Positions 35,051-35,699 of a stretch of 64,000 nt of DNA are shown in pieces; positions within the stretch are counted from its first letter, which is position 1, and each line of letters begins with the position of its first letter. Source of the stretch: Thermodesulfobacteriota bacterium (GTDB lineage: Bacteria; Desulfobacterota; GWC2-55-46); assembly GCA_030583865.1 (NCBI GenBank), contig CP129479.1:694744-758743 (forward strand), given 5' to 3'. A program made the translations under genes and the position numbers. The notes beneath the pieces are model-generated. The model worked only from the letters and a program-made list of their open reading frames with translations. It was not told the origin of the DNA and searched no databases.

Positions 35051-35699
35051 AATTCGAGTTCTTCAGCGACTTTTTAGAATAAGTATACTGCAATTTTTCC
35101 GCGGCGCTATCCGGCGCGCAGGTATTTATTCCAGGCGCACCGGACAGCGCGGGGGCCCAAGCCGTACCATCAATTGAAACCGCCTGTTTTTTCAGGGTTT
35201 TTCTTCAAGGCAGGGTATCATTCACTGCTTTTGCCAAAGATGGAGGGCCGTTTTTGTCCCTGCCCTCTTATTTCGCGCTCAGGCCAGTTCCAGAATTCCT
35301 CTTGACAGGGCAGGCGTATTTGTATACTGTATACAATGAAAACTAACCGGCCGTCTGGCCGGAGGGCATGGCGGGGCTCCCTGGAAAAGAAAGCCGGATT
35401 CAGCCTTAGTAATATTATTCCCCTTTTCGGCATTAATGCTTTCGGCTCCCTGGCCTTCCAAGGCCCGACCCGCCAGAAAAATCATTTTAGCTTCAAAAAC
35501 CGGCTTTTTCGACCTGAATACAAGCGTTTTTGGCCGCGGTCCCTGTTTTTGTGTCAGAGGGCCGGGGCCTTGTCCGGCTGAAATTCCGCATCCCCGCGAT
35601 ATCCGGGAATGCAATCGAATCAATAAAGCTTCCTTTTGTGCCGAAGGTCCCCCAGAGTCACAAGGCCTTTCGCGGGGAGTTTTCGAATAAGGAGGTCGG
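35051..35699. other. Long leader region upstream of mdh
   Basis: About 650 bp without a convincing gene. It contains a candidate promoter/operator at 35302-35336, a weaker related sequence AAGTATACTGCAAT at 35081-35094, and about 360 nt of apparent 5' leader before mdh. A short open frame (35336-35581) overlaps the operator and lacks a ribosome site or protein-like composition. I see no known riboswitch. Confidence 0.55.
35302..35336 (+). promoter_or_regulatory. Candidate promoter with overlapping palindromic operator, upstream of mdh operon
   Basis: TTGACA (35302-35307) forms a perfect -35 box. A -10 candidate lies 15 bp (TATACT) or 17 bp (TACTGT) downstream, inside the exact 17-bp palindrome TTGTATACTGTATACAA (35320-35336). 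An operator over the -10 box suggests repression. The TGTATACA-type core resembles sites of GntR-family regulators, but no such regulator is encoded here. Confidence 0.6.

Follow-up and report, generated by a model that had tools for sequence, protein, structure and literature searches.

The promoter of a long putative operon that begins with a malate dehydrogenase gene (mdh) contains a perfect palindrome that, with a probability of about 0.85, would be the operator of P0001, a transcription factor of the FadR subfamily (GntR plus FCD domains) encoded elsewhere in the genome. The site is assigned to this protein because P0001 is the only GntR protein of the genome above cut-off and because its own promoter region carries the site; conservation across the class, a fixed geometry with respect to the -35 box and the co-occurrence of core and regulator are counted as further support for P0001 as the binder. 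As predicted from the genomes compared here, the outcome is a small circuit conserved across a class of uncultivated bacteria and several related families.

The palindrome and the mdh promoter

The window, i.e. the whole stretch of 64,000 nucleotides that was analysed, carries at 35320-35336 the sequence TTGTATACTGTATACAA, a perfect 17-bp palindrome with one central base, the core of which, GTATACTGTATAC, lies at 35322-35334. Direct reading thus upholds the original prediction of an exact 17-bp palindrome over the -10 region, preceded at a distance of 12 nt by TTGACA. When up to three mismatches to the 17-mer are allowed, this is the sole match in the window, with 0 expected (100 shuffles). 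The features of the promoter and of the genes behind it are as follows.

35302..35307, + strand: -35 box TTGACA of the mdh operon promoter, read directly; 12 nt 5' of the palindrome
35320..35336, no strand: putative operator TTGTATACTGTATACAA, conserved at mdh in 44 of 59 genomes
35320..35329, no strand: left GT-N2-AC unit TTGTATACTG, matching the FadR-subfamily consensus with a 2-nt gap (excerpt of PMC4494728)
35327..35336, no strand: right GT-N2-AC unit CTGTATACAA, 7 bp from the left unit, matching the same consensus (same excerpt)
35323..35328, + strand: candidate -10 box TATACT within the operator, spacer 15, read directly
35325-35330, + strand: alternative -10 at spacer 17, read directly
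35337..35699, + strand: leader from operator to mdh, about 363 nt to the mdh ATG; length not conserved
35700..36635, + strand: mdh, malate dehydrogenase (TIGR01763, 481.7 bits, cut-off 351.85)
36690..38086, + strand: two-subunit fumarase (36690-37526 and 37490-38086; PF05681 and PF05683 above cut-off)
38083..42182, + strand: HdrC-like, HdrB-like (CCG), HdrA-like and FlpD/MvhD-like genes (Pfam, including PF02754 and PF02662; Hdr names given by eye)
42519..47970, + strand: Fe-S proteins, flavin reductase-like subunit, TfrB-like (by eye) and TfrA-like proteins (Pfam/NCBIfam)
48157..50231, + strand: sucC and sucD, succinate-CoA ligase (NF001913 and NF004230 above cut-off; sucD match from about 49356)
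50271..53224, + strand: 2-oxoacid:acceptor oxidoreductase alpha, beta and gamma (NF006412 above cut-off; beta and gamma just below theirs; alpha match from about 50619)

Dividing the operator into two overlapping GT-N2-AC units is our own reading. For the FadR subfamily an excerpt of PMC4494728 gives a TKGT/ACMA-type operator, with a 2-nt gap for GntR, HypR, PrpR and UxuR, and reports extra half sites 7-12 nt away. When the DNA 5' of mdh is aligned for five genomes of the genus, the stretch from TTCCAGAATTCC (which reads TTCCGGAATTCC in G003) over TTGACA to the palindrome proves conserved, while the flanks have diverged.

From 35700 to 53224 the genes run uninterrupted on one strand, from mdh through fumarase, Hdr/Tfr-like subunits and sucCD to the 2-oxoacid oxidoreductase, and sucC and the kor genes are therefore downstream of the mdh site. 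Within this run, 42519-43412 matched no Pfam family and 45445-46233 no NCBIfam family, and the TfrA match of the 42519..47970 stretch, at 336 bits, is below its cut-off of 718. The palindrome had been proposed as the switch of the reductive arm of the TCA cycle. It does precede an mdh run that includes sucCD and kor, and this part of the proposal stands, yet its reach is not restricted to the TCA arm: it also stands before complex I and the gene of the regulator itself, as well as before the ferredoxin-Hdr-glutamate synthase and bc-type operons.

Two further elements of the prediction fared less well. The 5' leader had been singled out as long, and its roughly 363 nt are real here; a special role for it was not borne out, as the distance from site to mdh start varies between 38 and 434 nt over 44 genomes and a search of Rfam over 34000-36700 returned two tRNAs and no other family at gathering score, so that a riboswitch in the leader was ruled out. 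A weaker related site, placed at 35081, dissolves into a bare GTATAC half, GTATACTG at 35083-35090; this hexamer has 18 copies in the window, and the half site, kept in G001 and G005, was rejected as a second operator as it is absent in G002 and G003. By eye, it may be the -10 box of the divergent cytochrome c gene.

Several other features of the region may be recorded in passing. The last base of the palindrome opens an 81-codon reading frame (35336-35581), probably no gene, because many relatives do not keep its ATG. A repeated element (34916-35070) that separates the cytochrome c gene from the mdh promoter has a similar copy at 59833-59916 and others in five of seven further stretches of the same genome (L013, L014, L015, L016 and L018; not L017 or L019), and is perhaps a small non-autonomous mobile element. 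Immediately 5' of TTGACA, a stretch resembling AGAATTCC (35285-35301 in the window) is found in 17 of 44 mdh promoters, in none of the 43 ferredoxin, 33 nuoA and 14 exact gntR promoters, and, by eye, in some gntR promoters with a one-mismatch site (G014, G021, G026); it is possibly an UP-like element or another site.

Sites in the genome

The genome consists of one contig of 2,751,635 bases. Its 2.75 Mb hold four exact copies of the core GTATACNGTATAC, against none of the reversed control and 0.07 predicted from base composition. Many random copies had been envisaged as a difficulty for the proposal; there are just these four, each in non-coding DNA upstream of a gene.

Core 1, window 35322-35334: before the mdh-fumarase-Hdr/Tfr-like-sucCD-2-oxoacid oxidoreductase genes
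Core 2, genome position 872596: before ferredoxin, HdrB-like and HdrC-like genes and split glutamate-synthase genes
Core 3, genome position 935014: before nuoA and further complex I genes
Core 4, genome position 2321388: before the GntR/FCD regulator gene P0001
One-mismatch copy, genome position 313336: before a bc-type operon (DsrO/QrcC-like Fe-S protein, DsrP-like protein, bc-type cytochrome b)

A genome scan for the palindrome before korD, sucC or citrate-cleavage genes had been suggested: sucC and kor genes lie downstream of the mdh site, and the other cores stand elsewhere, at the ferredoxin operon, nuoA and gntR. Looser patterns lose the contrast to the reversed control and are not specific, the 17-mer with at most three mismatches giving 8 places against 6, and the 13-mer with one mismatch 8 against 3. 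Conservation within the genus led us to accept the one-mismatch site at 313336; the remaining three places with one mismatch were not accepted, two being intragenic and one lying, by eye, about 30 nt before an aspartate-tRNA-ligase-like gene.

The candidate regulator

The core had been said to resemble GntR-family operators, and the likeness is strengthened by finding the same site upstream of the gene of the sole GntR protein above the Pfam cut-off (a single further match, at 23.5 bits, is below it). This protein of 229 aa, P0001 (G000:C1:2321575-2322261), combines a GntR winged helix-turn-helix (PF00392, 68.9 bits, cut-off 27, residues 18-79) with an FCD domain (PF07729, 95.5 bits, cut-off 24.3). 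Its structural model, with FCD helices at 84-228 (pLDDT 88, pTM 0.78), finds FCD regulators as its best Foldseek matches (7u5q, PmiR, McbR, VanR and TM0439), and no NCBIfam model reached its cut-off, the best being TIGR03338 with 135 of 271.5 bits.

When P0001 was aligned with 26 orthologues, the recognition stretch GISRTP.REA.RQLE proved invariant at the named positions, as did H144 and H188 of the FCD domain in all 27 sequences, residue 140 being Asp or His. Metal ligands of FCD domains are usually Asp plus His residues, four in all; the fourth was not recognised in this alignment. PmiR senses a tricarboxylate; that the FCD domain of P0001 senses a carboxylate of central metabolism is a guess, if a probable one.

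Among 30 regions upstream of gntR, 10 have the exact core, 15 a copy with one mismatch (12 of these being GTACACAGTATAC) and 4 a copy with two, G013 being the only one of the 30 without a site; a TTGAC hexamer ends 8-9 nt before the site in 24. P0001 shares with the FadR subfamily its GntR and FCD domains and, on the supposition that it does bind there, a GT-N2-AC operator with A/T-rich flanks (consensus from an excerpt of PMC4494728) and a layout consistent with autoregulation. It differs in the two overlapping operator units 7 bp apart and in a regulon of TCA, Hdr-glutamate synthase and respiratory genes.

A putative regulon shared by the class

The comparison covered 59 genomes, from the own genome through genus, family and order to class; the core is present in 58 and the reversed control in 3. 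Every one of the 151 core sites was retrieved; for the assignment, tblastn was run with proteins of the own genome and the nearest start of a match within -30 to 900 nt was taken. Just five genes or operons account for 138 of the 151: mdh (44 sites), the ferredoxin-HdrBC-glutamate synthase operon (43), nuoA (33, in 31 genomes), gntR (14) and the bc-type operon (4, in 3 genomes). The central base is A or T in every one of these 138 sites. As for the remaining 13, L105 is a nuo promoter and L223 an mdh-like promoter, each at a contig end, L143 precedes rnfC, and L119, L120 and L121 stand beside a homocitrate/isopropylmalate-synthase-like gene (NCBIfam for L119 only); the last seven (L116, L154, L160, L179, L199, L225 and L230) we regard as chance or unexplained.

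An orthologue of P0001 was found in 54 of the 59 genomes, with 63-98% identity where the match is nearly full length. The sole genome without a core, G052, which is 80% complete, also has no orthologue match. Four genomes (G006, G012, G029 and G042) have cores and no orthologue match, for which assembly gaps are the only explanation we can offer. The 14 named orthologue loci (74-98% identity) all come from metagenome-assembled genomes (MAGs), 13 labelled Deltaproteobacteria bacterium (for example GWA2_54_12, GWA2_55_10, UBA5799 and H5_GWC) and one uncultured bacterium. The class is probably GWC2-55-46 of GTDB.

Position of the sites relative to the promoters

At mdh, TTGAC[A/T] lies 14-16 nt 5' of GTATAC in 44 of 44 sites, and all 14 exact gntR cores have a TTGAC box 7-14 nt ahead of them (10 of them at 9 nt). 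Of the 43 ferredoxin-operon promoters, 29 have a -10-like hexamer that begins 2 nt 5' of the core, and in the others it is mostly farther upstream; the promoter rule demanded CTTG, thus leaving the own genome, which has GTTG, unscored (1 of 43). The order is inverted at nuoA, where TTGACA is 3' of the site in 33 of 33, with a gap of 9-10 nt in 29; in the other 4 the gap is 16-18 nt, and these are the outer member of each of two overlapping double sites and the sites of G035 and G038, which belong to one genus.

Geometry at the bc-type operon was read at 12 loci. GGATACTGTATAC stands 10 nt 5' of TTGACA in G000, G001, G002, G003, G005 and G010; the site of G032 lacks that -35, the -35 stretch of G004 reads N, and G007, G031, G040 and G054 have no such site. 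In G045 and G047 a TTGACA box precedes the exact site, and the overlapping double site of G035 has no TTGACA nearby. Three GTATAC units in a row, in steps of 7 bp, occur at nuoA in G017 (C279) and G024 (C211) and at the bc-type operon of G035 (C18).

Three promoters (mdh, the ferredoxin operon and gntR) thus have the element over the -10 region or immediately behind it; in the other two, those of nuoA and the bc-type operon, its place is about -52. Because it covers the -10 box at mdh and gntR, it could have been a conserved core-promoter motif serving no dedicated binder; that it stands 5' of the -35 box in the nuoA and bc-type promoters contradicts this, making such a motif highly improbable, and a reading as promoter only was rejected on the position of the nuoA site.

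Distant families and the identity of the binder

In the phylum, 84 of 297 genomes have at least one core; in several families the number is 4-8, against 0 for the control. P0001 was searched for in 30 distant genomes chosen for their cores and in 20 chosen for having none: a near full-length match at 47-56% identity was obtained in 20 of the 30 and in 0 of the 20. The orthologue is immediately preceded by an exact core in ten of these twenty (G231, G296, G180, G084, G230, G275, G315, G119, G206 and G117), and no such core is there in seven of the 17 for which places were listed (G082, G253, G316, G154, G207, G120 and G267); the core places of G151, G178 and G334 were not listed, and these three are outside this count. 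A TIM-barrel-like gene adjoins gntR or diverges from it, by eye, in the own genome (L016:8433-9278, - strand) as well as in several distant families, in which selA-like and potassium-channel-like neighbours were also noticed by eye. This shared neighbourhood supports orthology.

The other ten genomes (G139, G252, G307, G268, G173, G157, G179, G314, G212 and G167) have 2-8 cores and P0001 matches of 28-37% identity only, and some cores must therefore have another cause. In four of them (G139, G252, G307 and G268, with 3-8 cores) another FadR-type protein may use the same operator. These ten, together with the four relatives in the class that have cores without an orthologue match, are what would favour a different transcription factor as the binder of the palindrome, the GntR protein being just one of its targets; we hold this to be unlikely, as the units match the GntR operator consensus, a single GntR protein is above cut-off, and the site recurs at gntR down to about 47% identity (G084).

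We read 57 of the 63 cores of 14 distant genomes, and by our reading 34 of them precede genes of the TCA cycle, respiration or energy conservation, or gntR; the other 23 are elsewhere or unclear, including four before resB-like and two before glyQ-like genes. Ten target proteins were tested with NCBIfam, some matching below the cut-off of the model, and the rest were named by tblastn with proteins of the own genome or by eye. The ten are monomeric isocitrate dehydrogenase, citrate synthase, aconitase B, an ATP synthase b-type subunit, SdhC of the b558 type, RnfC, membrane pyrophosphatase, acetyl-CoA decarbonylase/synthase, the large subunit of aconitase/isopropylmalate dehydratase, and a homocitrate/isopropylmalate-synthase-like protein, perhaps a Re-citrate synthase. 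Sites at isocitrate dehydrogenase repeat the mdh layout (TTGACA, 14 nt, GTATAC), and three citrate-synthase sites of one family lie in a stretch shared with a divergent metH-like gene. The resB-like cytochrome c biogenesis gene, recognised by eye, has a core before it in G154, G207, G084 and G296 (L311, L316, L323 and L327). The MAG Desulfuromonadaceae bacterium isolate STC_69, the genome of L097, carries two cores against one of the control; the first precedes nuoA and the second isocitrate dehydrogenase. In STC_69, as in G206, G082 and G253, the nuoA site is near the start codon and downstream of the -35 box, unlike in the class of the window.

These targets recall HgtR of Geobacter sulfurreducens (GSU3364), described in an excerpt of a citing paper, PMC7726332, as a repressor lowering gltA, atpG and nuoA (for gltA also in an excerpt of PMC7894505), and treated in connection with acetate metabolism in a passage of PMC8691401. 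P0001 may be the orthologue of HgtR, so that the regulon would be a known one seen in another lineage, which is compatible with the palindrome being the operator of P0001; we see the chances of this as evenly balanced. The likeness is one of target lists: in distant families, sites precede citrate synthase, the ATP synthase b-type subunit and nuoA, all three in G119, besides gntR, and the Desulfuromonadaceae MAG STC_69 has the operator at nuoA and isocitrate dehydrogenase. Within the class of the window, however, of gltA, atpG and nuoA only nuoA was seen with a site, and mdh is the main target. Furthermore, an enhancer-binding-protein gene upstream of GSU3364 and a predicted RpoN promoter, reported in an excerpt of PMC2725144, have no recognised counterpart at 14 gntR loci, whether by rough gene picking over flanks of at most some 2 kb, L016 excepted, or by a scan of these short flanks for TGGCAC-N5/6-TTGC.

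Proposed sign of control

If the palindrome is the operator of P0001, the protein would occupy the -10 region at mdh and block RNA polymerase, perhaps as a pair of cooperating dimers on the overlapping GT-N2-AC units, and the same block would operate at the ferredoxin-HdrBC-glutamate synthase operon and at gntR itself. At nuoA and the bc-type operon, P0001 would be placed at about -52, 5' of TTGACA, and might activate. Activation at these two operons, to which we give roughly even odds, is likelier than repression, whose odds are rather below that, because the fixed spacing between site and TTGACA suits a contact with polymerase. The bc-type sites of G045 and G047 and the distant nuoA sites count against activation: they are downstream of TTGACA and therefore speak for plain repression in those lineages.

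There is precedent for such duality, as E. coli FadR and PdhR repress from one site over a promoter, activate from another upstream, and link carbon flow to respiration, their effectors, targets and operators being different from those of the P0001 system. P0001, with an operator for two dimers, may be pictured as a dual master switch of an uncultivated class, turning off the mdh-to-kor genes, the ferredoxin-Hdr-glutamate synthase genes and gntR while turning on complex I and the bc-type operon from fixed sites at about -52. The nuoA site would have shifted in evolution between a downstream, repressing place, as in Desulfuromonadaceae and other families, and an upstream, activating one, making a dual regulator of a plain repressor of energy metabolism; we advance this picture as a whole tentatively, at somewhat less than an even chance.

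The same regulator could also act by repression only, nuoA and the bc-type operon being lowered, for example, by blocking upstream contacts of polymerase, a possibility that we likewise place short of even. The distant-family nuoA sites, downstream of the -35 box and near the start codon, agree with it, as does HgtR, with its overlapping targets, being described as a repressor of nuoA (excerpt of PMC7726332); arguing against it are the 9-10 nt that separate the class nuoA site from the TTGACA 3' of it (29 of 33 sites) and the 10 nt kept at the bc-type site of six genomes.

How two P0001 dimers might share units 7 bp apart may be modelled on NanR of E. coli, a FadR-type protein that, according to an excerpt of PMC8012715, binds cooperatively as three dimers to three GGTATA repeats. 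Both systems use several short repeats, yet those of NanR are direct, with a different regulon, whereas the GTATAC units here are palindromic; moreover P0001 has about 16 residues before its first HTH helix, against the 32-residue extension of NanR.

Biological meaning

A literature search with the exact motif strings returned unrelated papers only, and we recognised no paper as describing this regulon, which is no proof of its being unpublished. From an orphan palindrome we arrive at a candidate regulator whose regulon and sites are spelled out exactly, in bacteria that are familiar chiefly through genome assemblies. How these bacteria control their central metabolism is thereby opened to tests that need a single purified protein and five short DNAs, and the rules of the sites (the side of the -35 box and the number of bases from it) predict the sign of control for each operon. 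Finally, the overlap with the reported targets of HgtR suggests that a single switch of energy metabolism is shared across the phylum and has been rewired between lineages.
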